Shown here: piece by piece, positions 78-24,270 of the stretch
How positions within the stretch are numbered: position 1 is the stretch's first letter
Layout: every line of letters starts with the position of its first letter
Notes under the pieces: model-generated
What the model was told of the DNA's origin: nothing
What the model saw: only the letters and a program-made list of their open reading frames with translations
Database searches by the model: none
Position numbers and translations under genes: made by a program
Assembly (NCBI GenBank): GCA_016867975.1
Contig: VGIC01000008.1
Location: 1-55,948, forward strand
Direction: 5' to 3'
Source: Betaproteobacteria bacterium
GTDB taxonomy: Bacteria; Pseudomonadota; Gammaproteobacteria; Burkholderiales; Methylophilaceae
Length of the DNA stretch: 55,948 nucleotides

Positions 78-315
78 AAATATGGCGCGCTCGGCGGGAG
101 TCGAACCCACGACCTTTGGCTTCGGAATCCGCTTCTGCTTCCAGCCAATCCTGCATATCCATGCCGTGCGTGAAGCCTCGCGCCTCGGCCCGGTAATAGG
201 CGGCCGTGGCGATGTGCTCCTGCCGGATGTGTTCACGGCGGAGATGATCATCGCGCTTGAGATGATTGGATTCTACTTTTCGAGTAGATTGCTTCTTGTT
301 GGACTCTGTGGTCAT
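58..315 (-). CDS. DUF2934 protein whose 3' end reads through the att site
   Basis: This is a small basic protein of 85 residues. Residues about 34-65 carry the DUF2934 signature (AAYYRAEARGF, then DWLEAEA), a short helical domain of unknown function. The start is firm, with GAGGAGG five bases before the ATG at 315. The last 20 or so codons are the tRNA-Arg 3' sequence (GRGFDSRRARH) and the stop lies left of the att repeat. The C-terminus is therefore composed at the island junction. In an excised circle the right-hand flank would also give a TAG at the aligned position. The conserved domain is intact, so the protein may still work. A second DUF2934 gene lies at 6859-7062. Confidence 0.6.
   Translation of the reverse strand: MTTESNKKQSTRKVESNHLKRDDHLRREHIRQEHIATAAYYRAEARGFTHGMDMQDWLEAEADSEAKGRGFDSRRARHIYQYKPR
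78..127. repeat. Left attachment repeat (tRNA-Arg 3' fragment)
   Basis: These 50 bases are identical to 24221-24270. Read on the minus strand they run from the anticodon loop (TTCCGAA) through the T arm and acceptor stem to CCA plus five bases. There is no 5' half of a tRNA next to it, so it is an att site and not a tRNA gene. Identity stops at 128, just 5' of the anticodon loop, so strand exchange probably took place in or near that loop. Confidence 0.9.
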
Positions 316-563
316 AATGCCTCCTCAATGAGAACTGGATTATTAAGTTCTTTATTTCCTAGCATGAGCCAAAAACAATGAATCTGGCTTCTAAATAAGA
401 ATTAAAAACTCATCATAAAAAAACATAACGGAGCGGTTGCTACGTCGCGAATCTTGTCGCCACTGCTGCCATTTACACAAAAATTATTTATACCCTCACC
501 CCTGAGTAGGTATTTTCTAAATTTGCAGTTGTTGCTCTTCAAAGTTGAATCCGCCATTTATTT

Positions 564-1169
564 TTAATTAATGACAGTGTTCTTAAAGAGTATCACTGGG
601 GCTTTTCTTGGGCTTGGTGTTGTTTTTCCTCTTTGGTAACCCACGATAATGGGGGCTACCACTTGATAATCATCGGTAATACTCAGTCTGTTTCTGATAT
701 CAGCATCGTTGAACGCAGGTAGTGCGTAACCGATGACACATGTACCTAAGTCCATTGCGCACGCAACCAGCATCATATTTTCTGCGGCCAGCCAGCAATC
801 TGCTTCTGCAAAAGGGGCCGATTTTTTGCCACAAATCAGAATCAGCGTGCTGGCATCATAGAATATATTGAAATCAGGGCTATTGAACATCTGACTGAAA
901 TGCGTGAGGTTGTTATGGTGCTCTTTTTGGTGCTCCTCTGCAAAGTAAAGCGCTTTGGCACGGTTGGATATTGTCAACAGCAGTGATTTGTCCTGAATAA
1001 TAACGAATGCCCACGGTTCACGATGCATTGCTGTAGGTGCACGCACTGCTGCTTCTAATAAAACGCATAGCGTTACATCATCAACTATTTGCGGCTGGTA
1101 ACTGCGTACCGAACGTCGCGCCAGTATCGTCTCATAGATTGACTTTTCTGTATCATCTAAAGGTAACAC
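564..1169 (-). CDS. Nitroreductase-family FMN oxidoreductase
   Basis: The protein has 201 residues, the normal length for the nitroreductase family of homodimeric FMN enzymes that reduce nitroaromatics, quinones or flavins with NAD(P)H. The N-terminal RRSVRSY motif and the following RAPTAMHREPW segment are the FMN-binding region, and a later GTCVIGY stretch fits the family's C-terminal FMN contact. It starts with GTG at 1169 behind GAGGTGG. The gene is divergent from the cytochrome gene at 1360, so the 190-bp gap holds both promoters. A broken homologue lies at 15966-16195. The physiological substrate cannot be read from the sequence. Confidence 0.85.
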   Translation of the reverse strand: MLPLDDTEKSIYETILARRSVRSYQPQIVDDVTLCVLLEAAVRAPTAMHREPWAFVIIQDKSLLLTISNRAKALYFAEEHQKEHHNNLTHFSQMFNSPDFNIFYDASTLILICGKKSAPFAEADCWLAAENMMLVACAMDLGTCVIGYALPAFNDADIRNRLSITDDYQVVAPIIVGYQRGKTTPSPRKAPVILFKNTVIN

Positions 1170-1359
1170 GCAACCACCTCACCACGCTGATTTAAAATAC
1201 ATTATGCGAAACTATCAGTAAATGCATCATGATGTAATCCGCGCGAACACGTATAAAAATCAATACCGCAGAAGTTTCGATCTGACAACCCATCGTTGCA
1301 TAATGAAACCGATTGATGTATGGTTAGGCCTGACTAGTCTGACAATGGAGAATTAAGTA

Positions 1360-1656
1360 ATGAAATACTTGATATTGAGTTTGCCTTTGTTGTTTGCGGT
1401 TGCCTGCACCAGCCAGAGTAAAGTTGAATCAGGCAGTGGGGCCGGGGCCAGTAAAATCGGAAGTTGTATTGCTTGCCATGGGGCGGATGGTCGTTCTGGC
1501 AAGGAAGGCGTGCCGCCGCTTGCAGACCGCTCGCGTGAAGAGCTTGTTGCCGCAATGGAGAGGGTGCGTGATGCCTACGCACCGCAGCCGCTGATTGGGC
1601 ATGATTTGAATGATCAAGAAATTCAGGATATAGCAGCCTATTTTTCAGCTCAATGA
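1360..1656 (+). CDS. Small lipoprotein c-type cytochrome
   Basis: This 98-residue protein has a lipoprotein signal peptide ending in the lipobox AVAC (Cys16) and one haem c motif, CIACH, at residues about 37-41 followed by GADGRSG. The C-terminal helix (IQDIAAYFSAQ) is typical of class I cytochromes of the c553 type. It should be a monohaem electron carrier anchored in the periplasm. The distal ligand is not certain, since the only later methionine lies in AAMERV. GGAG precedes the ATG. A decayed relative with the same N- and C-termini but no haem motif lies at 13594-13839. Confidence 0.85.
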   Translation: MKYLILSLPLLFAVACTSQSKVESGSGAGASKIGSCIACHGADGRSGKEGVPPLADRSREELVAAMERVRDAYAPQPLIGHDLNDQEIQDIAAYFSAQ

Positions 1657-1700
1657 GCGCTTGGGCAGCAGAGTAGAGGCTAACGTGTGCGGTGGTTAAG

Positions 1701-2315
1701 TTAACTTACGCCGCCGTCGTGTGCAAGCCGTGCCAGATCAAGTAAATTCATGGCGCCGGTTTTGTGCATGATTTTCGATTTATGGATTTCTACCGTGCGG
1801 TGGCTGATTTCCAGCAGGCGTGCTATTTCCTTGTTATGGTGGCCTTGAATTGCTAGTAGCATTACGTCCCGTTCGCGCTCAGTAAGTCCTGCCAGAAGTG
1901 TCTCTGCGTGTTGATGATTGGCATTCTCGCTTAATATTCTTTTCGCTTCGTTCAGTGCAGAATGTATAGCGGTTAATAACTTCTCCCGTGTTACTGGTTT
2001 GGTGAGAAAGTCCACAGCGCCTGCCTTAATTGCTCTCACACTCATTGGAATATCGCCATGGCCAGTGAGAAATATAATGGGTAACTGAATATTTTTCCTT
2101 GCAAGGTACTCTTGCAGCTGAAGTCCATCCATATCTGGCATCTTTACATCGACGATAGCGCACCCTAGGCTCCCTTCGTGGTGGGCCGCCAGAAATGCCT
2201 TGCCACTATCGTAGGTTTTAACGGTAATACCTTCCTGTCTGATCATCAGTGTCAGTGAATCCCGAATTGCGGGTTCATCATCAATAATGAAAACGGTACT
2301 GGTGTCTGTACTCAT
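1701..2315 (-). CDS. FixJ/LuxR-type response regulator
   Basis: The protein has 204 residues. The receiver domain (1-120) shows the acidic pair in IIDDEP, the phosphoacceptor Asp in VDVKMPDMDG, the switch threonine in LTGHGD and the lysine in TKP. The C-terminal LuxR/GerE helix-turn-helix (GLTERERDVMLL through SHRTVEIHKS) binds DNA. This is the FixJ/TtrR/NodW class. Its start overlaps the end of the kinase gene by 4 bases (ATGA), so the two are translationally coupled partners. The regulon is unknown; the palindromes at 3884-3980 and the neighbouring redox genes are natural candidates. Confidence 0.9.
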   Translation of the reverse strand: MSTDTSTVFIIDDEPAIRDSLTLMIRQEGITVKTYDSGKAFLAAHHEGSLGCAIVDVKMPDMDGLQLQEYLARKNIQLPIIFLTGHGDIPMSVRAIKAGAVDFLTKPVTREKLLTAIHSALNEAKRILSENANHQHAETLLAGLTERERDVMLLAIQGHHNKEIARLLEISHRTVEIHKSKIMHKTGAMNLLDLARLAHDGGVS

Positions 2316-3808
2316 GATGCCAAAGGAAGTGTGAAGTGAAAGGCCGCACCCGTGCCATCGCTAGGATCAAGCCACATTTTACCGCCATTCGCTTCTGTTA
2401 ATGCGCGGCTAATGGCTAAACCCATGCCGACGCCAGTCGGTTTTGTGGTAAAAAATGGCTCGAAGACGCGTTGCGCAATATCAGCATTCAGTCCCGGCCC
2501 CTTATCCTTGACTGTAACATGCACCATTTTTATTTCGCTATTGTTGCGAACCGTGATGGTAATGGGTGGGGACGCTGTGTTGATGGTTCTCACCGCCTCA
2601 ATCGCATTTCTTAACAGATTGACCAGAATTTTTTGTATCTGGATTTTATTGCCTATTACAGTGGCAAGATTTTCTTCAATCTGCAGTTCAGGCGTAAAAT
2701 GACCGTAGTCGTCGCCTCTGGCAATATTTACAGCCTCTTTTACCAAGTCATTTAAATTAAATTGTTCTTTGATCAAATCGCCTTTTTGCAGGAAAGCAAT
2801 TAACTCGTGTAGGCTCTTGCCCGCACGGTGGGCTTGTTCTATACAGCTTTCAAGTGCGTGTTTAATAGTGGTTTCATCTATACTGTCATTTTCAAATGCA
2901 TGTAAGGCAACTTCGCCATAGGCTGAAATTGCCGCCAGCGGCTGATTGAGTTCATGTGCAATGGCTGATGCAGTTTGTGCGGCTACTTGCTGTGCTAAAA
3001 GCGACTCAGTTTCGTTGCGATATTGCTGAAGCTTTTTACTCAGCAACTTCCGTTCAGTAATATCTCTTGCAACACCAATCAGTCGGCTTGCTACCCCATT
3101 TTTAAAAAATACGCGCCCCAACGCTATCACCCAGCGCTCTGCACCGGTGGCAGGCTCAATGACGCGATATTCAATTTTATACTTGCCTTTGCCTGCTGGG
3201 TCTGTGGCGCTGTTCAATGCATATTCTCTTGCATGGCGGTCATCGGGATGTATCACAGTGAGAAACTGTTTGTCTGACAACTCACTTTCAGCCTCTGCTC
3301 CCCACAGCACGCTCATTTTTTCATCCCAATGTTTGATAATGTAGTTGGGACCAAAGTCAAACACAGCCAGATTGGCCGCTTGTTTGGACAGGCGCAGTCT
3401 TTCTTCACTGGTTCTTAATGCTTCTTCGGCTTGGCGGCGGCGATCGGCCACGCGAATCGATGCCAGTGTGAATTTTTGATCAGTCATACGTACAGGGGTC
3501 AGGCCAATGTCTACCTTAAGCACTTTCCCATCCTGGCAAAGCACATCAAGTACAGCACCTGTGCCCATGTTGCGTTGTTCTGGATTTTCATTGAAAGCAT
3601 TGCGGTAATGGCGATGGTGTTCGTGATATTGCCGGGGCATCAGTGCCTCGACCTCGAGGCCGATGATTTCCTTTTCAGAATAGCCTAACAACTGCCGTGC
3701 TGCACTGTTGGTCAGTACCACATATCCAGATTTATCAATCAGCAGCATGGCTTCAGGCACTGCATCGAACAGTGTTTGAGAACATAGGTCTTGAAATGGA
3801 CTGGTCAT
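2312..3808 (-). CDS. PAS-PAS sensor histidine kinase (FixL-like)
   Basis: This is a 498-residue cytoplasmic kinase without membrane segments. PAS1 covers about 12-125 and PAS2 about 135-255 with its PAC segment (VARDITERKLL). The dimerisation domain has the phosphoacceptor histidine in IAHELNQPLAAIS, and the HATPase domain has the N box (NLLRNAIEAV), G1 (DKGPG) and G2 (GVGMGLAIS). The FixL/TtrS/NodV-type H box and the FixJ partner place it in that family. PAS1 lacks a histidine at the place where FixL carries its haem ligand (the segment reads RNMGTGAVL), so direct haem oxygen sensing is not supported. The signal is unknown. Confidence 0.88.
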   Translation of the reverse strand: MTSPFQDLCSQTLFDAVPEAMLLIDKSGYVVLTNSAARQLLGYSEKEIIGLEVEALMPRQYHEHHRHYRNAFNENPEQRNMGTGAVLDVLCQDGKVLKVDIGLTPVRMTDQKFTLASIRVADRRRQAEEALRTSEERLRLSKQAANLAVFDFGPNYIIKHWDEKMSVLWGAEAESELSDKQFLTVIHPDDRHAREYALNSATDPAGKGKYKIEYRVIEPATGAERWVIALGRVFFKNGVASRLIGVARDITERKLLSKKLQQYRNETESLLAQQVAAQTASAIAHELNQPLAAISAYGEVALHAFENDSIDETTIKHALESCIEQAHRAGKSLHELIAFLQKGDLIKEQFNLNDLVKEAVNIARGDDYGHFTPELQIEENLATVIGNKIQIQKILVNLLRNAIEAVRTINTASPPITITVRNNSEIKMVHVTVKDKGPGLNADIAQRVFEPFFTTKPTGVGMGLAISRALTEANGGKMWLDPSDGTGAAFHFTLPLAS

Positions 3809-3883
3809 TAAGAGGTTACCTATAATTTCTGTACGTATTGTGTAAGTCTACGATAAAAAAATAATGGATGCCTAATACTCTTT

Positions 3884-3980
3884 AACTTGATTCAAGTTGA
3901 TTGAATTCAGTAAGTTCAAATTTTAATTCCCATTTGCATGTGTCTTCGCATATAAGTGTTAGCACTTACGTGTTCGCACG
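3884..3980. promoter_or_regulatory. Cluster of three palindromes between kinase and PAS genes
   Basis: Three perfect inverted repeats lie in the divergent gap. AACTTGATTCAAGTT is at 3884-3898 (7+1+7). TAAGTGTTAGCACTTA is at 3953-3968 (6+4+6). CGTGTTCGCACG at 3969-3980 (4+4+4) directly abuts the second. They look like operators for one or more dimeric regulators, possibly the FixJ-like protein itself or an FNR-type factor. None matches the full FNR consensus TTGAT-N4-ATCAA. Confidence 0.4.
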
Positions 3981-4099
3981 AATGTACATAACATAAACGC
4001 CCTAGTAGATTTTCACTAGTTATATCGTTTTGGTAGTAGTGAGCGATGTGTCTTTCTAATTGTGATTAGATATTTTTATACATTTTTTCAGGAGGTACT

Positions 4100-4501
4100 A
4101 TGTTACCTTTAGAAGCTGGTTTGCGTGAACAGTCATCAGGTAATTATCGTAATAAAATCAGCGAGATAGATGCTGTAAACAATATTGCTGAGATTACGCT
4201 TTATGATAATGGCGTAATTGAATCATGTAGCAGAGCAGGGGCTGAGTTGTTAGGTTGTACACCGACCGCGTTGCTGATGCGACACATTACAAAAGTATTG
4301 CCGCAGTTGGAAGGTGTGACTTTAATAAAGGGCGATAGGGTAGATCCTTATTTGCGTTTTCTTTCACGTGCCGATCATCATTTTGAGGTGGTGGCCGAGA
4401 ATGGATTACGTTTTTTATGCGCATTGTTTTTTAATGACATAGGAGATTTTGGTAAACATCGTATCAGGATAATTTTTAGACCCGTTCCGACTTATCAATG
4501 A
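4100..4501 (+). CDS. Stand-alone PAS-like domain protein
   Basis: This soluble protein of 133 residues has AGGAGG seven bases before the ATG. Residues about 28-125 read like a PAS fold: NNIAEITLYDNG, then IESCSRAGAELLGC, which corresponds to the PAS core helix, and a C-terminal strand rich in F, R and I. There is no kinase, cyclase or DNA-binding domain, so it would act as a sensor or partner protein. It is divergent from the FixL-like gene and upstream of hsp20, which fits a signalling role in the same stress module. No ligand-binding residue can be assigned. Confidence 0.55.
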   Translation: MLPLEAGLREQSSGNYRNKISEIDAVNNIAEITLYDNGVIESCSRAGAELLGCTPTALLMRHITKVLPQLEGVTLIKGDRVDPYLRFLSRADHHFEVVAENGLRFLCALFFNDIGDFGKHRIRIIFRPVPTYQ

Positions 4502-4562
4502 TCACTTTGTATTTTGGATCACTTATATTTTAATTAATCCGTAAATGATGGGGGTAAGAGTA

Positions 4563-5066
4563 ATGAGTGCAGAAACTAAACAAAACATTCCGGTTACATC
4601 CACTAAGGATGACAAGCCATCCTATATGAGTTCGATATCTGATATGGAGAATGCGATTGAAAAGTTTTTCAATCGAAGATTTCCATCTTTATGGCGTTGG
4701 GGGGATATGCCAAAGATGGAGAGATTGTTTGAATTTGAAAATCAGCGTCTGCCAAGTCTGGATGTGATTGATCGGGATAATGAGGTGTTGGTGCGGGCCG
4801 AAGTGCCTGGTATTGATAAGAATGATATCAATATTACGCTTACTGATAATTTACTCACAATCAAAGGTGAGACCCGCAAGGAATTTAAAAAGGAGGAGGG
4901 GGATTATCACAGGCATGAAATATCCAGTTCATCTTTTGCTAGGTCAGTTACAGTGCCCCAGAACGTAGATGGTTCAAAAGCAGTGGCCAATTTAAAAAAC
5001 GGAGTGCTGGAAATTACCTTGCCGAAACTCGAGTCTTCCAAGCGCCATAAAATAGCTGTTCAGTAA
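4563..5066 (+). CDS. Hsp20/alpha-crystallin small heat-shock protein
   Basis: This is a protein of 167 residues counted from the ATG at 4563, which follows GGGGGTAAGAG. An upstream ATG at 4545 would add six residues and has no clear ribosome site. The alpha-crystallin domain spans about residues 62-165: PSLDVIDRDNEVLVRAEVPG, then a strand of NLLTIKGE, and the conserved LKNGVLEITLPK near the end. It is an ATP-independent holdase that keeps unfolding proteins soluble. It lies among redox and nucleotide genes on the island, a setting seen in general stress clusters. Confidence 0.92.
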   Translation: MSAETKQNIPVTSTKDDKPSYMSSISDMENAIEKFFNRRFPSLWRWGDMPKMERLFEFENQRLPSLDVIDRDNEVLVRAEVPGIDKNDINITLTDNLLTIKGETRKEFKKEEGDYHRHEISSSSFARSVTVPQNVDGSKAVANLKNGVLEITLPKLESSKRHKIAVQ

Positions 5067-5069
5067 TGC

Positions 5070-5564
5070 ATGCTACTTGGTAAAGAAAACGGATTGTTAA
5101 AGTGGCTCAGGCTTAAGCATCGGGTCGTCTTATTCATTCTGTTGATATTAGCGGTACTTTCATTGCTTTTTTCAAGCGGGGTGACAGGGTCATCATCCTC
5201 GCTTGATCCAACTGTGGAGCAGGTGGGAGATATTACCTACATCTCAGGTGGTGTGAGTGAATCCGAATCAGTCATGATGAAGGCGTTGGCGGTTGACTAT
5301 CAGCTTGAGATCGTACTGATACAAAAACTACAACAGAGAGAAGAGTATCTAGCGGATGTCAATGTGCAGGTTTTTGATCACAATCTTAAAAGCTTGCTTA
5401 ATATTGACACAGAGGGACCTTATCTTCTCATGAACCTGCCGCTAGGCAAGTATCTGATTACGGCTGAATATGAGGGGGTTGCTAAAAGTCAGTGGGTAAA
5501 GAATGATGGTAAGAAACATCAGAAATTGATTTATTGGTGGCCAATATCAGAGACCTTACCTTAG
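5070..5564 (+). CDS. Membrane-anchored protein with carboxypeptidase-regulatory-like fold
   Basis: The protein has 164 residues. A single hydrophobic segment at about 17-40 acts as a signal anchor, and the rest is extracytoplasmic. Residues about 50-65 (VGDITYISGGVSESE) and the beta-rich part from about 95 (EYLADVNVQVFD, GPYLLMNLPLGKYLITAEYEG) resemble proteobacterial proteins with a carboxypeptidase regulatory-like, transthyretin-type domain. The function is not known. It begins 3 bases after the hsp20 stop and ends 11 bases before the next start, so it is probably co-transcribed with both. Confidence 0.55.
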   Translation: MLLGKENGLLKWLRLKHRVVLFILLILAVLSLLFSSGVTGSSSSLDPTVEQVGDITYISGGVSESESVMMKALAVDYQLEIVLIQKLQQREEYLADVNVQVFDHNLKSLLNIDTEGPYLLMNLPLGKYLITAEYEGVAKSQWVKNDGKKHQKLIYWWPISETLP

Positions 5565-5575
5565 AGGAGCCATGA

Positions 5576-6142
5576 TTGGATTTTACATCAATGGGAGACA
5601 GGACTTGTCTATATCTCACAGCCCAGTTGGAAGCGGTTGTTGATGGCATGGCATGGCGTGTAGCAGGGTTTCTTACCGGCAAGGAAAATATCATGGTGGT
5701 GGGGATTTTGAGGCGTGGAGCCCCACTGGCCGAGATGTTGCGTAACCGGCTGATGAAGAATTTCAAATTGGCTAATATAAGTTTGATGAATCTGAATATC
5801 AAGCGTTACGCAGATGATTTGACCTTGATATACCCAGAAACCAAATTGACCGAAGATGACTCATCCAAATTAATCAATCTTGCTGGGACTACGGTTGTAG
5901 TCGTTGATGATGTCATGTTTCAAGGTCATTCAATGTTGCGCGCAGTTGATTATCTGGCCAGTAAAAATGCCGCTGAGATTCGCACGGTTGTGCTTGTGGA
6001 TCGTGGAGCCAATAAACTCCCTGTACGCGTTGATGTTTCTGGTGTAAGACTGGATGTGGCGCCTACTGACATTATTGAATGTAATGTTCCGCCATATGAA
6101 ACTGAATTCAAGATTGATTTGCATAAACCCACCATTAATTGA
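5576..6142 (+). CDS. PyrR-like phosphoribosyltransferase domain protein
   Basis: This protein of 188 residues has the type I phosphoribosyltransferase fold. The PRPP-binding loop is VVVVDDVMFQGHS (about 103-115), the hood-side loop is VGILRRGAPLA (about 42-52), and VDRGANKLPVRVD matches the region following the PRPP loop in PyrR. PyrR is a uracil phosphoribosyltransferase and pyr attenuation regulator, but island relatives may not share its substrate. The best start is TTG at 5576 behind AGAGGAG; an ATG at 5591 is the alternative. It is followed directly by a second phosphoribosyltransferase gene. Confidence 0.72.
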   Translation: MDFTSMGDRTCLYLTAQLEAVVDGMAWRVAGFLTGKENIMVVGILRRGAPLAEMLRNRLMKNFKLANISLMNLNIKRYADDLTLIYPETKLTEDDSSKLINLAGTTVVVVDDVMFQGHSMLRAVDYLASKNAAEIRTVVLVDRGANKLPVRVDVSGVRLDVAPTDIIECNVPPYETEFKIDLHKPTIN

Positions 6143-6153
6143 TATGGATAGTG

Positions 6154-6834
6154 ATGATGTTCAATAATCGTGCTGAAGCTGCAGAAAAACTGGCCGAGAA
6201 GCTCGGACATTATCGCGGCAAGCATCCACTGGTGCTGGCAATTCCCCGCGGGGCGGTACCCATGGCAAAAATCATTGCCGAAAAATTGGGCGGCAGTTAT
6301 GACGTGGTGCTGGTACGCAAGCTGAGGGCACCTTTTAACCGTGAGCTGGCAATTGGCTCAGTAGATGAGAGCGGATGGGTTTACCTTGCCGATTATACTA
6401 AATCCGTCGGCGCTAGCGATGAGTACATTGCGGCTGAGAAAAAGATTCAGATGGATACAATCAGAGAGCGGCGCGAGCAATATACACCTGTCAGGCCGCC
6501 CATTAGTCCAGCTGGCCGCATCGTAATTGTGGTGGATGATGGACTCGCTACGGGGGCGACGATGATATCAGCGCTGCATGGGCTTCAGAAGCAAAGGGTG
6601 GAAAAACTGATTTGTGCGGTACCAGTGTCGCCAGCGGATACGTTAAGGAAAGTTGCCAAAATCGCAGATGAAGTAGTTTGCCTTGATACGCCTGATGATT
6701 TTCAGGCTGTGGGACAGTTTTATTATGACTTTCCTCAGGTTGAAGATCATGAGGTGATGGAAATCTTGCGAGAGGCGCAGCTTGTGAAAAGCAGTAATGT
6801 CTATGAGCCGCATGGACAGGTTCCCTATACATAA
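6154..6834 (+). CDS. Phosphoribosyltransferase family protein
   Basis: This protein of 226 residues is counted from the ATG at 6154. A TTG at 6139 that overlaps the previous stop would add five residues. It has the PRPP motif IVVVDDGLATGATM (about 129-142) and the early pyrophosphate loop VLAIPRGAVPMA. RKLRAPFNRELAIGSVDE marks the group of stand-alone phosphoribosyltransferases that often lie beside dienelactone hydrolase, Hsp20 or universal stress genes. The nucleobase substrate is unknown. It overlaps or adjoins the PyrR-like gene, and the pair forms one operon with hsp20. Confidence 0.8.
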   Translation: MMFNNRAEAAEKLAEKLGHYRGKHPLVLAIPRGAVPMAKIIAEKLGGSYDVVLVRKLRAPFNRELAIGSVDESGWVYLADYTKSVGASDEYIAAEKKIQMDTIRERREQYTPVRPPISPAGRIVIVVDDGLATGATMISALHGLQKQRVEKLICAVPVSPADTLRKVAKIADEVVCLDTPDDFQAVGQFYYDFPQVEDHEVMEILREAQLVKSSNVYEPHGQVPYT

Positions 6835-13593: not shown

Positions 13594-13839
13594 CTATTTG
13601 ATGACACTGAAAAAATAACCGGCGATATCCAGAATGTCTCTCTCGTTCAGCGTGTGTGCTATCAAAGGCAAGTCGGAACTTGCATACTTTGGGGCGACGA
13701 GCGCCGCGCTCATGACATCTGACGTGGGTTTTCACTTTATTTCCGGCCGGCAGGTGTTGAAGGGGCGGTGCCCTTGCCTTGTGTGGTGCAGGCAGCAAAC
13801 ATGGTGATTGATTGGAACGGTGAGCGAAAGGTGTTTCAT
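13594..13839 (-). pseudogene. Decayed lipoprotein cytochrome c gene
   Basis: A good ribosome site (AGGAG) and an ATG at 13839 open a frame that reads MKHLSLTVPI. One base later it continues as ITMFAACTTQGKG, a lipobox, and soon stops. Further on, LPLIAHTLNERDILDIAGYFF matches the C-terminal helix of the intact cytochrome at 1360 (PLIGHDLNDQEIQDIAAYF). The middle with the CxxCH haem motif is missing. It is therefore a frameshifted and internally deleted relative of that cytochrome. It lies between fadD and the hydrolase operon on the same strand. Confidence 0.7.
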
Positions 13840-13912
13840 CGTGTTCTCCTGCTGTGGTGGTGGGGGTGAAAAGAATGAATGCCCGACGACCATGATGGTG
13901 CCCCTCTATCTT

Positions 13913-15592: not shown

Positions 15593-15618
15593 TCTTGACT
15601 CCTTTAGGTTTGACTTAT

Positions 15619-15726
15619 TCAACTGGCAGCAATAAATGACTCCACGCTTTTGCGTACTATCATGACGGCGATGGCGGCGGTCGCCACAGAGAGGTAAATG
15701 ATCCGGCGCATCAGGTTTTTTTCCAT
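15619..15726 (-). CDS. Possible 35-residue membrane peptide
   Basis: This short frame lies 26 bases upstream of fadD on the same strand. It encodes a basic start (MEKNLMRRIIYL), one hydrophobic stretch (SVATAAIAVMIV) and a short polar tail, as in a single-span membrane peptide. AAAGGG lies too close to the first ATG, so an internal ATG at 15711 could be the start. It could be a leader peptide of the fadD transcript or chance. No family is recognised. Confidence 0.35.
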   Translation of the reverse strand: MEKNLMRRIIYLSVATAAIAVMIVRKSVESFIAAS

Positions 15727-15774: not shown

Positions 15775-15945
15775 CTAGCGATGCCAGTGCACGCGCACCA
15801 GATTCTCACCGGGGGTATGCTTGGTTTTTAATTCGCCTTGATATGCGTGATGTACCGCCTCCCCAATGCCTTTTGCCAAATGCATGTCCGTGGTCGTGAT
15901 TTCCATCGTGCCATGCGGGTGATTGATGGCAATAATGGCGGTCGG
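15775..15945 (-). pseudogene. 3' fragment of a BCAM0308-like gene
   Basis: The frame ends in IEITTTDMHLAKG-like sequence (read here as MEITTTDMHLAKG), then GEAVHHAYQGEL and LVRVHW. From memory this is the C-terminus of the BCAM0308 family of small proteins found in low-oxygen and stress clusters of Burkholderia. The N-terminal part is missing, and the sequence runs into the nitroreductase fragment in another frame. The family match has not been tested by alignment. Confidence 0.45.
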
Positions 15946-15965
15946 CGACATGGAAAATGTTATCG

Positions 15966-16195
15966 GATTTTCCGCAAATGATGATGAACGTGCTGGCGTT
16001 GAAAAATATATTGAAATCTGGGCTACTGAAAATTTCCTCCAGTTTATGGATGTCCTGATGTTGAGATACATGCAGATGCAATGCATGCACGAATCTTGGT
16101 TTTGCATAGTCCGATAACTCCTGCAGTTTCTTATCCAGAATCACAACAAATCCCTATGGTTCACTATGCATTACGGTAGGTGCTTGGATTGCGGG
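15966..16195 (-). pseudogene. Nitroreductase gene fragment with amber codon
   Basis: The minus strand reads APTVMHSEP, then TAG, then GFVVILDKKL, and later IFSSPDFNIFFNASTFIIICGK. These match the intact nitroreductase at 564-1169 (APTAMHREPW, FVIIQDKSLL, FNSPDFNIFYDASTLILICGK). A tryptophan codon has become amber and both ends of the gene are missing. It is a decayed paralogue on the same island. Confidence 0.75.
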
Positions 16196-16405
16196 CGCGG
16201 ATAGCCTGTGGATTTATTTCACGCGGTTGATGCTCCCAGACCAATCACCTGTTCAGGACGCCCCCTGACACCGTCAAATTTTCATGAAAAGCGGTCATGC
16301 CCCACTTTTTCACTCGCCAGTCACCTAGTCTATACTCTAGCAAGAATCGCCGGTACACTTAAGTTAGGGCGAACACGTATGCTGCGTATTCAAAAAACGC
16401 GAGAT

Positions 16406-16488
16406 GTGGTGTTGGATTGTTAAAACGCCACTCGCAGTCCTTTAAAAACACTACAAAGTTGGCCTTAGGCAAACCGTTAAATTTTGCG
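16406..16488 (-). pseudogene. IS1595-type transposase fragment
   Basis: A 29-codon piece reads KFNGLPKANFVVFLKDCEW and RFNNPTP. It is nearly the same as KFNGVPKVNFVLFLKECEW in the larger IS1595 remnant at 51972-52259. The DNA of the two pieces aligns over about 80 bases with few mismatches. It abuts the end of the CHAD gene. Confidence 0.7.
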
Positions 16489-16490
16489 GA

Positions 16491-17607
16491 CTAGGTTTGA
16501 GGAGTTTCTAGATCAATCCAAAAGGGCTTAACTTTCAATAGGTTTTTTAATGCAGAATCCGCTTTAGAACATTCTTGGTTGATTTTTTTCCTGATCCATC
16601 TTTCGGAAATATCTATTGCTTCATTTAGGTTGGTACTAGGTATGGTTTTAGAAATTGGCCTTAATAGACCTTGAGTAACATTCATATCATTCATCGCACC
16701 CAAACTGTCTTGTAACTTAGCTAATTTTATTATGAATGCATCAATCTGCTTGGTTGGATACAAGTTGTAAAAAAACTCCATGGCATATCTTAATTTTTTG
16801 GCTGCAATTCTGACTTTGTGCCTATCTTTAGGTTGCATATCCTTGAATCTTAGCTTGCACTTCATTAGAGGTTTATAAAACGAGTTCAATGACTTTTTAG
16901 CAAACTTGAGTAGTTTAAAATGACCGCTTTTGTGTTGCTGCTCCAGCCAGCGTTTATTTTCAATCCAAGATGAGAGTGTTAACAAAAGACTGTGGTAACG
17001 CCGGGACAATATTGCCTCCTGCATAGCCTGACAAACTAACTGTCTTGCCCGTATTGCTTGCTCACTAAGCACTAATATGTCGTTATGATTGTTTGAATAA
17101 TCTCTAAGATTAGGGAGTGTCTCAGTAGTTAAAACGTCAAAATCCCTGACTTTTCCTAATTTGTTTGCAAGCCAACTCACTTCAGTGAGTATCAAATGGC
17201 TTTCTTCACACTTAATGAATTTTTCAAATAATGAAAATGCACAACGAAGCCGTCTCAAAGCAATACGCATTTGATGGACGCCTTCAATGTTGGCTTCATT
17301 TTGTACGATATCTCGATTACTCTCTAGATGGTTAATGCACTCCCTTGCAATTATCTTAAAAGCGGCATTTGCATCAATATGTTTATCTAGATTTGGGAAT
17401 TTAGCTTTGTACGTTTGAAGTGCGCTAGCGCGATAATACCCATAGCCACGTTTTGCTTTGCTATTATTTTCAACTCTCAAAGGAACCCTCTGCTGTAAAG
17501 CTAACACGATATCAAAGCCCCGGCCTACATTACCTGCATTTAGTTCTATTTCAATTTCATTAATTGGTTTCTGAAATTGATTTGGCGATGTTCCGGGTAT
17601 ATTGTAG
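16491..17607 (-). pseudogene. 5'-truncated CYTH-CHAD protein
   Basis: The open frame runs from 17607. Its first residues include PINEIEIELNAGN and PLRVENNSKAKRGYGYY, the end of a CYTH (triphosphate tunnel) domain. A full CHAD domain of about 290 residues follows, with the conserved histidines and arginines in VHQMRIALRRLRCAF and RHKVRIAAKKLRYAMEFF. Most of the CYTH domain, roughly 160 residues, is absent and there is no ATG before GTG at 17507. A GTG start would give a CHAD-only product of 338 residues, which could still fold. CHAD domains bind polyphosphate. It is AT-rich compared with the neighbours. Confidence 0.7.
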
Positions 17608-17719
17608 TATCAAAGTGAATTGGTAAAGCGTATTTTGTTGATGAAACTTTCGTGGCACTTGGGCCTTTCAAGTCGCCTGGATCATATAGTTTTAACACAC
17701 CCCCTAGATGGAGAGCGCG

Positions 17720-17966
17720 ATGAGAAAACTTTGGATTGGCCTGATCAATGACCTTGTTCTTGAGCGGCCTGCAAGCCTTAGCAAGCGACGAGAAGAAGAA
17801 TTCGAAGAAACCGGAATTTGCACGTATTGCTGAACCGAGCGGGAAAGCAAAACCCAATGGTCAGGCAAACTCAAAAGCCAAGGCATCTCCTATAAAGAGG
17901 GATACCGCGAAAATGCCCGTTGATCCGTTAGAAAAAAGGCGGGAATGCGCAGCAAAGAAAACGTGA
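17720..17966 (+). pseudogene. Small secreted basic protein, frameshifted in its signal peptide
   Basis: GGAGAG precedes the ATG at 17720, which starts MRKLWIGLI. One base later the frame from 17748 continues MTLFLSGLQALASDEKK and stops at 17966. Joined, the two pieces form a typical signal peptide with an ALA-S cleavage site and a mature part of about 60 residues rich in Lys, Ala and Pro. Translation from 17748 alone would leave a short but perhaps workable signal. No family is recognised. Confidence 0.4.
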
Positions 17967-18085
17967 AGGCCGCGACGTCGCCTGAGTATATTGAGGTGTT
18001 TTACAATCGCATTCGCCGATATGTAAAAAATAAACAATCAAATACCTGCTCAATTCGCCCAAGGTTGGCTTATACAACAACATAA
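17946..18085 (+). pseudogene. IS3-family transposase C-terminal remnant
   Basis: The frame reads VKAATSPEYIEVFYNRIRRY, the end of the integrase core of IS3-type transposases. After a one-base shift it continues NQIPAQFAQGWL. The remnant overlaps the end of the preceding small gene. No terminal inverted repeats were found. Confidence 0.6.
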
Positions 18086-18172
18086 AATGCTGCATAATAA
18101 TCAAACTTGCCCCTCTATAAAATCGGACTTAGCTCAAAAAACCGGCGGAAGGCCAACTACGCAGAACAGGGA

Positions 18173-20627
18173 ATGACGATGAACACAGAAACCGCAATCT
18201 CGCCAAAATATCCCGTCCTCGACGACATCGAAATTCCGGAAGACATACTGTCTAGCTGGCAGGTGACAGTCGACTTGCTGGCCGAGGTCGCCGGTATTCC
18301 GGCGGCGCTGATCATGCGGGTGCATGAGCAGGAAATCGAGGTGTTTCGCAGCAGCCACAGCCAGGGCAATGTTTACAAGCCCGGCGAAAAGGCGCCGCTG
18401 AATAGCGGGCTTTACTGCGAAACCGTCATGAGCACCCAGCGCAAGCTGCTGGTGCCCAACGCCCTGAAGGATCCGGTCTGGGATCACAACCCGGACATCA
18501 AGCTGGGAATGATCTCGTACTGCGGTCTGCCGCTGACCTGGCCCAACGGCGAGCTCTTCGGCACCATCTGCATTCTGGACAAGAAGGAAAACAGCTATAC
18601 CCCTCAGACCCACCACCTGTTCGAGTGCCTGCGCGACAGCATCCAGTTGAGTCTGCAGCAGGTCTATCACAGCGCCATTGAGCGGAGGGAGGCTGCCATT
18701 CATGAGCAGGAAATCTCGCGCAGCAAGATTGAGGCCGTGCATCAGGAATGGCTTCAGTCATTTGATGCCGTGCCGGATCCGATCTTCATGCATGATCGCC
18801 AATTCAATGTGCTCCGTGCCAACAAAGCCTATGCCAACAAGGCGGGGTTGGCTTTCAAGCAGTTTATCGGTCGTCCTTACTGGGAGGTTTTTCCGAAGCT
18901 GGAAGGGCCATTGTCGGGGAGCGTGGATGCAGTCAAGCACCCGCAACCAGGGGTTTTTCACGATCAGGAGTTTCAGCTGGAAACCGGCGAAATCTACCTT
19001 TCCCGTTCGAGCCATGCATTCGATCAAAATGGCGAATACCTATACTCCATCCACTTTCTGCATGACATTACCGAAGCCAAATTGGCCGGGACAAGGGAAA
19101 ACGAGCATCGCACCCTGTCTGATCGAAACCACGAACACCGGATATGTTGTCATCGACACTGAGGGCCGCGTCATCGATGCCAACGCCGAGTACGTTCGAC
19201 TCACGGGCTACCGCGAACTGAAGCAAATTATTGGTCGCAGCGTGATTGAATGGACTGCCGAGTACGAGACGGACAAGAATGCCAATGCCATTGCGCAATG
19301 CGCACGGGATGGACAGATCAGAAACCTGGAAATCGACTATACAGGCTGCGAAGGTAGGATCACGCCCATCGAAGTCAATGCGACGGTCGTGACACGACAG
19401 GGTCAGATACAGATACTTTCGCTGTGCCGCGACATTTCTCAGCGCAGACTGTCTGAGCATACCCTGCTGCGCGCCGTGCGTGCTTTGAAAACCCTGAGTT
19501 CCTGCAACAGGATTCTGGTCCACGCCAGGGATGAGCATCACCTGCTATCCGAGATGTGCCGGAACATCGTCGAGCAAGGCGGATACCGGATGTGCTGGGT
19601 GGGATATGCGGAACATGACGAGAAGCAGAGCATCCGTCCCATGATCAGTGCCGGACATAACGATGGCTATATTGAAATGCTGCATCTTACCTGGTCGGAT
19701 ACCGGGCGTTATGAGGGACCCACCGCACAGGCCATACGCAGCGGCCAGGTGGTTGTCGTGCGGGATATTGCCAATGAGCCATCCTTCGCGCCATGGCGCG
19801 AGGCGGCCCTTGCCCGTGGCTATAGGGCATGCATCGCATTTCCGCTGAAGCCAAAGGAGGGGGTCGCATTCGGGGGACTCGTCATTTACTCAGCGGAAGC
19901 CAATACCTTCAGTCACGAGGAACTGGATCTGCTTGAAGAGTTGGCCGAGGATCTTTCTTTTGGCATTCACACCCTTCGTACACATCAGGAACGCGATCAC
20001 TTTCAGAAGGAGCATCAGAAGAGCGCGGAACAGCTCAGGGAATCCCTGTTCGATACTATCCGTGCCATTTCGCTCACCGTGGAAAAGCGCGATCCCTATA
20101 CCGCAGGCCATCAAAGCCGTGTCGCGCAACTGGCTACCGCGATTGCCGGAGAACTCGGGATGGATGCAGATCGCATCGAAGGCCTCAGGTTGGGCGGCAT
20201 GATCCACGATATAGGCAAAATTTACGTTCCCGCCGAGATTCTCAATCGCCCGGGCCGGCTCACACATGGTGAACTTGAAATCATCCGCTCACATCCCGAA
20301 GTGGGCTACGAGATCATCAAAGATGTGAAATTCCCATGGCCGGTCGCTGACATGGTGCTGCAACATCATGAGCGTCTGGACGGGAGTGGTTATCCCCATG
20401 GGCTCAAGGGCGATGAGATCATCCTGGAGGCGCGTATTCTCAGTGTGGCCGACGTGGTCGAGGCCATCACCAGCCACCGTCCCTACCGCCCAGCCATCGG
20501 CATCGAGGCCGGGCTGGCTGAAATCGAAGCAAAACGCGACCAGATCTATGATCCGGACGTGGTTGACGCTTGCCTGAGGCTCTTCCGCGAAAAAGGCTAC
20601 GTTCTTGAAGGCGCGGGTCTTAAATAA
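18173..20627 (+). pseudogene. GAF-PAS-PAS-GAF-HD-GYP signalling protein, frameshifted
   Basis: The first part (frame from 18173, ATG behind AGGG) has a GAF domain (about 20-180) and a PAS domain ending HFLHDITEAKL. Near 19085-19115 one extra base shifts the frame. The second frame continues with PAS (ETTNTGYVVIDTEG), GAF (WVGYAEHDEK to GLVIYSAEANTF) and an HD-GYP domain with MIHDIGKIYVP, then HHERLDGSGYP. HD-GYP domains hydrolyse cyclic di-GMP, and their catalytic residues are present. Undivided, it would have about 815 residues. A sequencing error in the CCC run is possible, in which case the gene is intact. Confidence 0.75.
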
Positions 20628-20712
20628 AGTGAGTTCGCCCCTGTTGTTCAAAATACCAAGCAGTGGCTACTGATTATTTCAACGCAACTGGTGTCACTAT
20701 GAGCTAGTATAC

Positions 20713-20940
20713 TTGAGGCACACTTGGGCATCCTGGCATCGTCAGGCTGGCACGAGTTGTGATGAACTGAAGGACTTGGGAGGCTGGAAAACCAGATCGA
20801 TGGTTGATCGTTATGCAGAATTTGCAACTGAGAATCTGGCATTTGCTGCTTCCAGGATTGAACTCGGTCGGGGGACAGGTAACGTGATTAGTTTGTCACG
20901 TTTTTGTCACGTTTCAGAAATGAAAAAGGCTAGCGCATGA
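20713..20940 (+). pseudogene. C-terminal fragment of a tyrosine recombinase
   Basis: The piece reads RHTWASWHRQAGTSCDEL and then LGGWKTRSMVDRYAEF, the last two catalytic boxes of a phage-type integrase (HxxR region and Tyr nucleophile), unlike the intact integrase at 22012. The rest of the gene is absent. It ends in a terminator hairpin and lies beside a tRNA-Asn-like scrap, as a left-over of an older integration event. Confidence 0.8.
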
Positions 20941-21077: not shown

Positions 21078-22001
21078 TCATTGTTGCTTTACCGACAAGT
21101 TATCTATCATTGATATAAGAGATGACTCCGTAGTTTTTGGAGACCTAAATCCAGTCCAGTCGGCAATCCCTTGGGTGGATGTAATGCCATGAAGTATCTC
21201 CAGCCACTCCCGCTCAGTTATTATAATCTGATACTTATTTTTTGCCTCGACCACCCATTCCAAGGCGGTGAGCTTGTGCCCAAGCAATTGCCCTCGTTTC
21301 GACATGTAATAGCGCTGATGTTGTTCGTGATACCAATACTCGTCAGTCTTGCCAATATCATGCAAAAAACAAAGCAGAGTCAAACGATTTAAATCTACAC
21401 TATCATTTAAAGTCACCTTTTGCGCCAGCTCACACACCTCAATGGTATGAATCAAATTGCCATGGGGTATTGCGTGGTGGTGGTTCAACGAGCTAGGATA
21501 GTTCAAAAATTGCCAGAAACGTTTCTGATCCCACAAAACTCCATTGATCAATCTCTGATAGTTATTAGGCAGTTTATTATAAATGGCAATAGCACGTTGA
21601 ATGAGCGACCTATCCCAGACCCAGTCGGTCGGCACTGTTTCAAAAATACTCAAGCCATTCGGTGGGCTATCAACCAACACCAGTCGGCTTATGATAATTG
21701 CGCCATGCTCGCACAAAGTTTGTCCTTTCCAGCGGATGCTGACAAGACAACCTTTTTTGAGTCGCGCATCTACATAATCAGCCGTCCATTTCACACGTAG
21801 GCTAGCCTGTTCATGAAATATCTCAGTGATTATTTCATGACGGTTATTTTCGGTCAGTCGAGATTCAATTGCTATCACCCTAAAAATCAAAGGTAACTGC
21901 TCTATCAGCATGCATAGGCTGGGTGTCGCCTTAGAGGTTAGGCGCATAATCAGTCGATCTACAATCTGCATTTCTCGTGATTCATTTAATACATCGTTCA
22001 T
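21078..22001 (-). CDS. HD-domain protein of the island recombination module
   Basis: This protein of 307 residues has an HD phosphohydrolase domain in its second half: LNHHHAIPHGNLIHTIEV, then LLCFLHDIGKT, GHKLTALEWV and LHGI. The arrangement resembles both YhaM-type exoribonucleases and the TraI_2 domain of MobH relaxases. The middle region (KKGCLVSIRWKGQ) could be an OB-like fold. It begins 11 bases after the integrase stop and so is the third gene of the xis-int-HD operon. A role in island transfer or nucleic acid processing is inferred from that context only. Confidence 0.65.
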   Translation of the reverse strand: MNDVLNESREMQIVDRLIMRLTSKATPSLCMLIEQLPLIFRVIAIESRLTENNRHEIITEIFHEQASLRVKWTADYVDARLKKGCLVSIRWKGQTLCEHGAIIISRLVLVDSPPNGLSIFETVPTDWVWDRSLIQRAIAIYNKLPNNYQRLINGVLWDQKRFWQFLNYPSSLNHHHAIPHGNLIHTIEVCELAQKVTLNDSVDLNRLTLLCFLHDIGKTDEYWYHEQHQRYYMSKRGQLLGHKLTALEWVVEAKNKYQIIITEREWLEILHGITSTQGIADWTGFRSPKTTESSLISMIDNLSVKQQ

Positions 22002-22011
22002 GATGAAGTCC

Positions 22012-23259
22012 TTATGTATTTTTAACTACAGTTGTTGTGGATGGAACCTCTAAGTTGCTTGTAAGCAAACGGTTAAAGGCAGAACCATCATTTCTCGTTA
22101 AATTAGGCACATAACGGCTATAAACGCGGAACAACATTTCCGTCGTTGAATGTCCCATCTGACGTGCAATCCATTCTGGATTTTCTCCAGCAGCTAGCCA
22201 TAGCGTAGCTGCCGTATGCCTAGATGTGTAAGGTCTGCGTAGCTCTAAACCTAGGTAGCGGAGCAATGGGTACCAGACTCTGTTGGTTAGATTGTTAAGG
22301 TTTAGATGTTTGCCCTCAGTGTTGCAAAATACGAATTCAGAATGCTTTTGCGTAGCTTCACTTTGGCGCATCAAGGCGTTGTGCACTGCATCTGACATGA
22401 AAATCTCGCGGATGGATAAATCAGTTTTACCCTCATCCTCCATCTCTTCACCCACCAAGGTTTCTCTGATCAGAATCAGTCGATTTTTAAAGTCAACATA
22501 CTTCCATTTCAAACCATGAATCTCGCCCGTGCGCATTCCTGTAAAAAATCGCACAATGAAATAATCGCGATAATCTTGCCTCACGGTTTTTAGAATCAGA
22601 CTCACCTCATCAAGCGTAAAGGGCTTAATATCCAATCGCTTGATTTTTAGGGGTTTGATTCTTTGCCCCGGTGAGGTAAAGTTATAACGGTCAGCAGCCT
22701 CATTAAGAATTTGTCTTAATCCCAATACAATGGCATTGATGCGCCGTGCTGAGAGGGTCTGATTTTTTCGTCCTGGGACTTTGGCGAGTTGAGAACGAAA
22801 ATCAAGAATATCTTCACGACGGATGCTGCTGACTACCTTTTCTCCAAAATACGGCACCAAGTGTTTATCGATGGTGTCGCGCATGGTTTGCACGTAGCTT
22901 TTGCGCCAGCCGATCTTACATTCATCAAACCATTTCTCAGTAAAGTCACTAAAAAACGGAGCACCATCAACCTGCTGTTGAATATGGGCTAATTGTTTAT
23001 TTGCTGTGACTAAATGCAAGTTTGACTCACTAGATGCAGCAATGTTAAAAGTAAAAGTTTTGGCTAGTCTGCTATTAGGAAAATATCTGGCATATTCAAA
23101 AGCACCATCTTTAATTTCGCCCTCTATTTTTTCCAGAAGCTTAGATAGCTTCTGCCGGTTCTGTTTTGTGTCTGCAAGTGCAGTGTATTCTCTACACCTA
23201 GTTCCTTTATATCGAAAGTCACAAAAGAGTTTGCCCTTATTTACACGGATGCTACCCAT
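22012..23259 (-). CDS. Island integrase (tyrosine recombinase)
   Basis: Counted from the ATG at 23259, which overlaps the xis-like stop by 8 bases and follows GGAGGG, the integrase has 415 residues. The N-terminal part (MGSIRVNKGKLFCDFRYKG) is the arm-binding domain of the DUF3596 type. The catalytic domain shows the first Arg in GMRTGEIHGLKW, box II in YTSRHTAATLW, GHSTTEM and the Tyr in VYSRYVP. It catalyses site-specific integration and excision at the tRNA-Arg att sites. The TGGGCCA array and tRNA-proximal att repeat lie about 0.8 to 1 kb upstream. Confidence 0.93.
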   Translation of the reverse strand: MGSIRVNKGKLFCDFRYKGTRCREYTALADTKQNRQKLSKLLEKIEGEIKDGAFEYARYFPNSRLAKTFTFNIAASSESNLHLVTANKQLAHIQQQVDGAPFFSDFTEKWFDECKIGWRKSYVQTMRDTIDKHLVPYFGEKVVSSIRREDILDFRSQLAKVPGRKNQTLSARRINAIVLGLRQILNEAADRYNFTSPGQRIKPLKIKRLDIKPFTLDEVSLILKTVRQDYRDYFIVRFFTGMRTGEIHGLKWKYVDFKNRLILIRETLVGEEMEDEGKTDLSIREIFMSDAVHNALMRQSEATQKHSEFVFCNTEGKHLNLNNLTNRVWYPLLRYLGLELRRPYTSRHTAATLWLAAGENPEWIARQMGHSTTEMLFRVYSRYVPNLTRNDGSAFNRLLTSNLEVPSTTTVVKNT

Positions 23260-23485
23260 GGCAGTACCCTCCATTTGCCATCGGAATGGAGGCTGGGCTG
23301 AGGGGGCGAGTAAGAATTTCGCTCTCGATGACTTCCCAGATGTACAAGATTTTTCTACGTCCAAAAGGACGTATGTAATGTACCCCCTCTATCAAAACAC
23401 TGTCCTTCAATTGATTTCGGATCGTTCTAGGGTTGTAGTTAATGCGCTCTGCCAGTTGATCAGTAGTTAAGTATGTTTGAGTCAT
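23252..23485 (-). CDS. Excisionase-like DNA-binding protein
   Basis: This 77-residue protein has a winged helix-turn-helix motif of the excisionase/MerR-like type: YLTTDQLAERINYNPRTIRN, then VHYIRPFGRRKILYIW. Such proteins bend the att DNA and turn the integrase towards excision. It overlaps the integrase start by 8 bases, so the two are translationally coupled. It is divergent from the XRE regulator at 23634, and the 148-bp AT-rich gap must hold both promoters. Confidence 0.75.
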   Translation of the reverse strand: MTQTYLTTDQLAERINYNPRTIRNQLKDSVLIEGVHYIRPFGRRKILYIWEVIESEILTRPLSPASIPMANGGYCHG

Positions 23486-23633
23486 AATATATTCTTTCTA
23501 AAAGTAAATAATTAAGATAGAATGAACATTTATCTTTCTGCCTGTATAAATTCCATCCTACATGACATTTTAGATGCAAATATTTCATTTTGCAACAACT
23601 ATTTTCATTTAGAATGTAAAAAGAGAGTTTTGT

Positions 23634-23840
23634 ATGATTAAATGTCATTTATCCCGATTGATGGGAGAGAGAAAATTGAAAATTTCTGATGTAGCAAGGG
23701 CAATAGATGTTCACCGAAACACAATTACTCTTCTTTATGATGAAAATGCTAATCGTGTTGATTTAGATACATTGAATAAGCTGTGTATATTTTTTGACTG
23801 CAATGTGGATGACTTATTGCAGTTCGTTCCAGAAGAGTGA
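23634..23840 (+). CDS. XRE/Cro-type transcriptional regulator
   Basis: This is a 68-residue helix-turn-helix protein of the Cro/C1 HTH_26 type: LSRLMGERKLKISDVARAID, then VHRNTITLLYDE and CIFFDCNVDDLLQFVPEE. It consists of the DNA-binding domain alone. Its divergent position next to xis-int makes it the likely switch controlling excision genes of the island, by analogy with phage repressors. Confidence 0.85.
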   Translation: MIKCHLSRLMGERKLKISDVARAIDVHRNTITLLYDENANRVDLDTLNKLCIFFDCNVDDLLQFVPEE

Positions 23841-24083
23841 ATTATGGATGCGTGTTCAAATGTAGAACTGGGAAGCGATTTAGGCTAGAGAAACTCTTGA
23901 AAAATCTTTCCATACTTAGCTCCGCTTAATAAATGCTATTAGTTGAGAATTTGATGATGGGTTGGCGAGAGCTAGTGAAATAGGTCGCCTGTGAACATCA
24001 TAGTGGATAAGTCATTAATTTAGTACCAATAAACTTTTAGGCACGAAGACATGGTAAAGACGACTAAAATGTAGATAAGTTTA

Positions 24084-24177
24084 TGGGCCATTAACCAATG
24101 GTCAAAATTTATAATCCAAATTTTGGATGAAAGGATGTGGGCCAAACTTGGGCCATTGGTGGGCCACTGGTGGGCCA
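24084..24177. repeat. Helically phased TGGGCCA array beside the att site
   Basis: TGGGCCA occurs at 24084, 24138, 24149, 24160 and 24171. The last four are exactly 11 bases apart, one turn of DNA, so all face the same side of the helix. The array lies 44 to 137 bases from the right att repeat. It resembles arm-type or excisionase sites of an att region. The same stretch has no gene from 23841 to 24225. Confidence 0.7.
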
Positions 24178-24220
24178 TGAAAAAGCAAAGTTAGTAATCA
24201 CTATCCTAGCTTTCCTTGAA

Positions 24221-24270
24221 AAATATGGCGCGCTCGGCGGGAGTCGAACCCACGACCTTTGGCTTCGGAA
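24221..24270. repeat. Right attachment repeat within tRNA-Arg
   Basis: These 50 bases are identical to 78-127. This copy completes the tRNA gene, so the island brought in a functional 3' end and the host tRNA was preserved. Confidence 0.9.

Follow-up and report, generated by a model that had tools for sequence, protein, structure and literature searches.

A probable 24-kb integrase-only island in the tRNA-Arg(CCG) gene of a Methylophilaceae bacterium, and the phased array beside its docking site

Introduction

What kind of element lies between the tRNA-Arg(CCG) gene of a Methylophilaceae bacterium and a second copy of that gene's 3′ half, and how would it have docked there? The question is raised by contig VGIC01000008.1 of assembly GCA_016867975.1 (Betaproteobacteria bacterium), a stretch of 55,948 nt that is called the window here and comprises the entire contig (C8). 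An initial annotation, made from the letters alone, had proposed that a perfect 50-bp repeat bounds a mobile island of about 24 kb. The present analysis leaves little doubt that the DNA between the repeat copies is an integrative genomic island of 24.1 kb, integrase-only in type and inserted in tRNA-Arg(CCG). It is a typical integrase-only tRNA island with an unusually clear docking site, and its most useful feature is a phased array of presumed integrase arm sites, together with the scar that such an array apparently leaves.

The borders of the island

The borders are defined by a direct repeat of 50 nt that is perfect by exact sequence comparison, with attL at 78-127 and attR at 24221-24270, both on the minus strand. 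ARAGORN finds one tRNA only in the window, the tRNA-Arg(CCG) gene at 24226-24302 on the minus strand. Because its anticodon lies at tRNA position 35, the repeat starts in the anticodon loop, covers the rest of the gene, and extends 5 nt beyond it. attR is thus part of an intact tRNA gene, whose 3′ half would have been supplied by the element, and attL is a copy of the same 3′ half with the 5 additional nt. The initial annotation had described this identity correctly, and its coordinates are right within one base.

No third copy of the repeat is found in the window. When a 261-nt probe spanning the left copy is searched against the genome to which the window belongs (44 contigs, 1.56 Mb), it matches three places: its own position, the copy in the tRNA, and one end of contig C15, which represents the same locus. 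A probe from the tRNA side gives four matches, three of them listed as the same three places and the fourth weaker and unlisted. A general genomic repeat unrelated to the tRNA, which the initial annotation had raised as an objection to its own reading, is therefore ruled out: apart from the one further weak match, the repeat is confined to the two places and the C15 overlap.

The integration module

The int and xis-like genes occupy 22012-23485, beside the tRNA and at the end of the island where the annotation had placed them. A border repeat that equals the 3′ part of a tRNA gene is thus accompanied by an integrase gene adjoining the restored tRNA, and repeat, module, and tRNA together support the mobile-island reading and both of its borders well. 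The tyrosine integrase (22012-23259, minus strand) combines a PF12167 arm-binding domain with PF14659 and PF00589 domains. Its longest open reading frame (ORF) begins with a TTG at 23364, and the first ATG stands at 23259. Where the first histidine of the catalytic pentad, weakly conserved in the IntBPP-1 subgroup, would be sought, a reading by eye gives Tyr-Thr-Ser-Arg-His. A small xis-like protein (23252-23485, minus strand) overlaps int, and a Cro/C1-type helix-turn-helix (HTH) regulator (PF13443; 23634-23840, plus strand) is divergent from the xis-int pair. The reading frames of all three genes are intact. Behind int lies a gene for a YhaM-like protein with an OB-fold and an HD domain (21078-22001, minus strand).

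This arrangement recurs around related integrases. In the best 80 of 322 confirmed relatives, a homolog of the xis-like protein stands beside int in 80 of 80 loci, an HTH homolog is present in 71 (24-76% identity; some may be other HTH proteins), and the OB-HD protein in 26. The predicted structure of the latter, calculated from a 13-sequence alignment, consists of an OB-like domain and an HD domain with a mean predicted local distance difference test score of 87. Its best solved match is YhaM, both by sequence and by fold (Foldseek E 4.3e-9, the sole match at E <= 0.001). Pfam returns a general HD domain only (E 0.01), as it does for two homologs (E 0.1).

At E 1e-60 the integrase is found in 6 of 187 genomes of the family, its own included, and in three plasmid records, all of which are below 60% identity and indicate no donor; four related loci occur in IMG/VR contigs. 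Pfam searches of 30 ORFs, 25 of them in the island and with small ORFs only partly covered, reveal no relaxase or conjugation genes and no phage structural or packaging genes.

A phased array beside the tRNA

Between the module and the tRNA lie four TGGGCCA (GGCCCA) sites on the minus strand (24138-24177), which start at 24138, 24149, 24160, and 24171 and are thus 11 bp apart. They are presumed to be arm-type integrase sites of the P arm. A fifth TGGGCCA site follows 54 bp past the array (24084-24090, minus strand). Counted downstream from the 3′ end of the tRNA, the GCCCA cores fall at +50, +61, +72, +83, and +137. The array presumably resembles the phased arm sites of lambda-type integrases.

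A tRNA is found within 3 kb upstream of int in 28 of the 80 loci, which together with the window give 29 loci for comparison. A four-site array with 11-bp spacing beats all 60 dinucleotide shuffles in 20 of the 29 (the window and 19 relatives), and the same test at spacings of 9, 10, 12, and 13 bp succeeds in 1, 0, 0, and 4 loci. The arrays stand beside tRNA-Arg, tRNA-Met, and tRNA-Pro and vary in sequence between loci, as expected if arrays follow the integrase and not the tRNA. Since similar arrays accompany related integrases in 19 of 28 loci, the GGCCCA array is likely the arm-type part of attP.

A pair of the form TGGGCCA-N(4-6)-TGGGCCA occurs in the window's own genome at this place only, and a TGGGCCA pair is present somewhere in 11 of 52 genomes of the genus, often with other spacing and elsewhere. 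In 35 hand-picked tRNA-Arg flanks of the family, which were judged against mononucleotide shuffles, 8 flanks, one of them that of the window, carry a significant array and the other 27 do not.

Contig ends and the outer flank

The sequence to the left of 78 is cut by the assembly. Positions 1-127 of the window recur without a mismatch at the end of contig C15, and its final 127 bases recur in the same way at the beginning of contig C18. Exact 127-nt overlaps at both contig ends point to de Bruijn assembly with k = 127. Because overlaps of exactly this length fit k-mer sharing, C15 is, judged by these overlaps, the true left neighbor of the window. Its first long ORF, named by eye, is one that we take to be valS-like. 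Upstream of this ORF (L004, 255-504) lies a dispersed intergenic sequence, for which other genomes of the genus show several counterparts of ~68-73% similarity, some lying at the ends of contigs.

The overlap with C15 stops at position 127, where the agreement between island and tRNA also ends. Such a branch of the assembly graph at the end of the repeat suggests that a second allele was present in the sequenced DNA, which would most simply be an empty site with an intact tRNA. Another element at the same site would also account for it.

The outer flank (1-77, minus strand), which continues into C15, resembles an arm that has decayed, left by a previous element of this type. It aligns with seven of the eight array-bearing flanks at scores of 22-39 and with L190, a flank that has the stem and no array, at 23. 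The score against the eighth array-bearing flank (L160) is only 9, the other 26 flanks reach at most 12, and 300 mononucleotide shuffles at most 16. Much of the similarity falls in the stem just past the tRNA. C15 further retains GCCCA cores at +50 and +106, of which the latter, by eye, appears to correspond to the fifth site, with the middle sites lost. Because the flank aligns with array-bearing flanks and keeps these cores, an earlier element of the same kind probably stood at this site.

The stem was also considered as a conserved terminator and dropped, with z scores that are strong in G147 (-5.06), weak in G144 (-1.67), and give no support in the window or C15 (-0.66 in both). In G065, from which L190 derives, tRNA-Arg gives way downstream of 10092 to the stem of these elements without the array, and then to an apparent part of another tRNA gene.

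The cargo

Domain searches divide the cargo into three parts. Block A (128-6834) begins with a DUF2934 ORF that runs from 315 down to 58 and overlaps attL, followed by a nitroreductase, a cytochrome c, a FixJ/FixL-like pair, a hypothetical protein, HSP20, a second hypothetical protein, and two phosphoribosyltransferases. Block B (7344-15622, minus strand), which GC content also sets apart, encodes a fusion of acyl carrier protein, fatty acyl-AMP ligase, and acyltransferase, a major facilitator superfamily transporter, a ceramidase-like protein, an alpha/beta hydrolase, and a FadD-like ligase. A mixed segment (15775-20842) holds nitroreductase and BCAM0308-like remnants, an 81-nt transposase-like remnant (16405-16485), a CHAD protein, and GAF/PAS and HD-GYP frames. 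Block B has 57% GC and a GC content at third codon positions of 0.60-0.68, compared with 47% and 0.40-0.54 in twelve hand-picked flanking genes.

The blocks also occur apart from this integrase. The phosphoribosyltransferase at 6139-6834 is found in 26 of 187 family genomes, its own included, and the remaining 25 include none of the five further int carriers. In 18 loci fetched from those 25 genomes (up to 20 kb each, matches of >=35% identity counted), the partner phosphoribosyltransferase is present in all 18, HSP20 in 10, FixL or FixJ in 8, and int in none. The 937-residue acyl-ligase fusion reaches nearly its full length in 3 of 187 genomes of the family and is found in 43 of 399 sampled genomes of the order at E 1e-200, its own genome included in both counts. 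All five lipid genes stand together in G144 at 66-73% identity, and six other loci in the order keep one to three of the five together. Plasmid records yield ten matches to the fusion at E 1e-100, all below 60% identity, so that no donor is indicated.

Because the blocks occur separately elsewhere and block B differs in GC, the cargo is, as far as gene content and composition tell, a mosaic of blocks of different origin. A cargo specific to the element is ruled out, since the genes of its stress and lipid blocks also stand together in other genomes of the Methylophilaceae and Burkholderiales, with this integrase not nearby. The initial annotation had seen a mobile cargo of stress and lipid genes and knew of no described element with it. 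The genes are indeed there; they are not special to the element, whose sister (below) carries Druantia-type genes, and the novelty of the cargo was overstated. Its domains would suit a host benefit through redox and heat-stress functions and through fatty acid activation and re-acylation. PADLOC returns nothing at 1e-5 for the five island ORFs that were searched.

Two smaller observations concern the mixed segment. At 18107-20627, two frames that overlap encode GAF-PAS and PAS-GAF-HD-GYP domains, like one frameshifted long sensor gene. The 81-nt remnant is 91% identical to a second copy outside the island (52021-52101); Pfam finds no match for either of the 26-residue transposase-like peptides, and the minus-strand peptide presumably resembles the end of IS1595-type transposases.

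A sister element and the neighborhood of tRNA-Arg

The closest counterpart stands in Methylophilus sp. 14 (G074), with identities of 79% for int, 88% for xis, and 68% for HTH, and with tRNA-Arg(CCG) 12.4 kb away. Between this module and the tRNA lie genes that match DruE, DruA, DruG/DruC, and, more weakly, DruB (L160, 6913-17479). In G147, int is present beside its tRNA-Arg in two pieces with stops. The tRNA-Arg loci of 34 relatives (up to 10 kb on each side, several shortened by contig ends) contain no cargo block, only single matches of <=35% identity. In relatives the site thus lacks this cargo or, as in G074, holds another, and the same cargo in the same place without int, which the initial annotation had named as the finding that would speak against it, is absent from these 34 loci.

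On the far side of the tRNA, outside the element, the genes between 24610 and 30108 have homologs in a moxR/mxa-type cluster of G129. Pfam finds MoxR-type AAA and VWA domains here; the remaining mxa gene names are ones that we presume. The cluster of G129 lies ~18 kb from tRNA-Arg, on its 3′ side. Neither an mxa-type cluster nor valS is seen near tRNA-Arg in the other sampled stretches of up to 10 kb on each side, several of them truncated, which is why the adjacency of island and methanol-oxidation-type cluster looks incidental. Within the cluster, a moxR-like gene is split over two frames at 24610-25627. The pieces of its G129 homolog share one frame, so that it is either a pseudogene or an assembly error. 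A 136-nt direct repeat of 90% identity (29990-30125 and 30268-30403) lies at and past the end of the VWA gene.

Proposed mechanism and competing explanations

In the proposed mechanism, the tyrosine integrase would recombine the 50-bp identity segment that covers tRNA-Arg(CCG) from the anticodon to the 3′ end. The inserting element would put its own copy in place of the 3′ half of the tRNA, so that the gene stays whole, and the displaced half would remain at 78-127. The arm-binding domain presumably binds the 11-bp-phased GGCCCA array, ~49-88 bp past the tRNA. Excision would be the task of the overlapping xis-like gene, and control of the switch that of the divergent HTH gene. For transfer, the island probably relies on another element or on natural DNA uptake, because no relaxase, conjugation, or phage structural gene is found among the ORFs scanned. 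The cargo would have grown by the addition of two or more blocks that differ in origin.

Several observations weigh against this reading. The genome bin of 44 contigs contains no empty-site contig or circle. An exact-pattern scan of viral contigs gives no hit for the circle junction and none for left flank plus repeat, a pattern that ends at the repeat end and would match filled and empty sites alike. The comparison across Methylophilaceae that the initial annotation had suggested finds the site without this cargo or differently filled, and no exact empty site sharing both flanks among the relatives compared. A tRNA lies near int without a significant array in 9 of the 28 related loci. The seven relatives with array-bearing flanks show a related integrase in the fetched stretch only in G147 and G074; G144, G129, G140, and G063 have none there, and the stretch of G139 covers 476 bp. 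The link between array and integrase is thus statistical, and the flanks without an integrase are read as elements that have decayed or been rebuilt. The island itself looks broken at two places (18107-20627 and 15775-16144), and parts of it may be decaying.

One rival possibility is that the island was correctly inserted once and is no longer mobile. The broken frames in the cargo are consistent with such an inert remnant, and so are the four tRNA-Arg arrays without a related integrase, which make this kind of decay seem common. The frames of int, xis, and HTH are intact, however, the att copies are identical, and the contig breaks exactly at the repeat end, so that loss of mobility is a serious though rather unlikely alternative. 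Much less probable is a composite origin, in which the left repeat would stem from an older element and the right one from a younger, and the 24 kb would be two partly deleted elements. The arm-like outer flank and the probable earlier use of the site would fit it, as would the segments of differing GC in the cargo. Against it, no third att copy is found inside the window, only one integrase is found among the ORFs scanned, and the left repeat is identical to the tRNA of its own genome over 50 nt, whereas 31 of 34 relatives' tRNAs differ from it at 1-7 of 45 nt. The least probable reading, in which the HD gene would encode the relaxase of an integrative mobilizable or conjugative element, draws on a weak NCBIfam match to MobH (E 2.4e-4) and is very improbable, as the sequence and fold of the protein match the YhaM exoribonuclease, Pfam supports only a general HD domain, and conjugation genes are missing among the 25 island ORFs scanned, so that a relaxase role is rejected in favor of a YhaM-like OB-HD protein.

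An integrase-only island remains the best explanation. We tentatively propose, as a conjecture somewhat short of an even chance, a widespread unnamed family of mainly beta- and gammaproteobacterial integrase-only islands. Its members would share a fixed module (divergent HTH, overlapping xis-int, and the OB-HD protein as a dedicated accessory factor in about one third) and an attP arm of four 11-bp-phased sites, whose sequence varies (GGCCCA, GTGCCCA, GTGACCA, GTGTCCA) with the spacing kept. They would carry any cargo, defense or metabolic, into tRNA-Arg, tRNA-Met, or tRNA-Pro and leave arm scars on decay.

The island shows how a methylotroph gains blocks of genes, and its sharp borders offer a starting point for tests of excision. 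As a simple sequence signature, the 11-bp-phased array may make it easier to locate the scars and exact ends of this integrase family in draft genomes. The locus also illustrates that draft assemblies can cut islands at the very repeat that defines them.

Comparison with known systems

Neither this element nor its array is described in the titles or abstracts among the matches listed from the open-licence PMC literature. Its nearest relative by module is the sister in Methylophilus sp. 14 (L017/L160), which likewise has tRNA-Arg(CCG) nearby and a phased arm array there; unlike the present island, it carries Druantia-type genes as cargo between regulator and tRNA. Modular defense hotspots have been described on Pseudomonas islands, in the portion of that work considered here (PMC12629846).

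In the same family, chiefly in its streamlined pelagic lineages, flexible islands and tycheposons are reported at tRNA-Ser(gga)/tRNA-Arg(cct), tRNA-Lys, and tRNA-Met (PMC10872708). They resemble this island as tRNA-bounded variable regions, and the combination of a tyrosine recombinase, which a tycheposon carries, with a tRNA at the border is present here too. The sections of that account drawn on here state none at tRNA-Arg(CCG). The PF12167/DUF3596 arm-binding domain marks the IntBPP-1 subgroup of tyrosine recombinases (PMC8138268), and this integrase likewise joins it to a tyrosine-recombinase catalytic domain. The examples named in the relevant part of that paper are phage integrases, whereas a search of 50,697 phage records at E 1e-60 yields no match to the present one.

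The closest known class, as far as the excerpted description goes, is that of the integrase-only mobile islands that occupy hotspots in the E. coli pan-genome, whose movement is unexplained there (PMC10121019). Common to both are integrase genes, insertion at fixed sites (for many hotspots, a tRNA gene), exchangeable cargo, and the lack of recognized transfer genes. The present island differs from them in its Methylophilaceae host, its site in tRNA-Arg(CCG), and a cargo of stress and lipid genes in place of defense.

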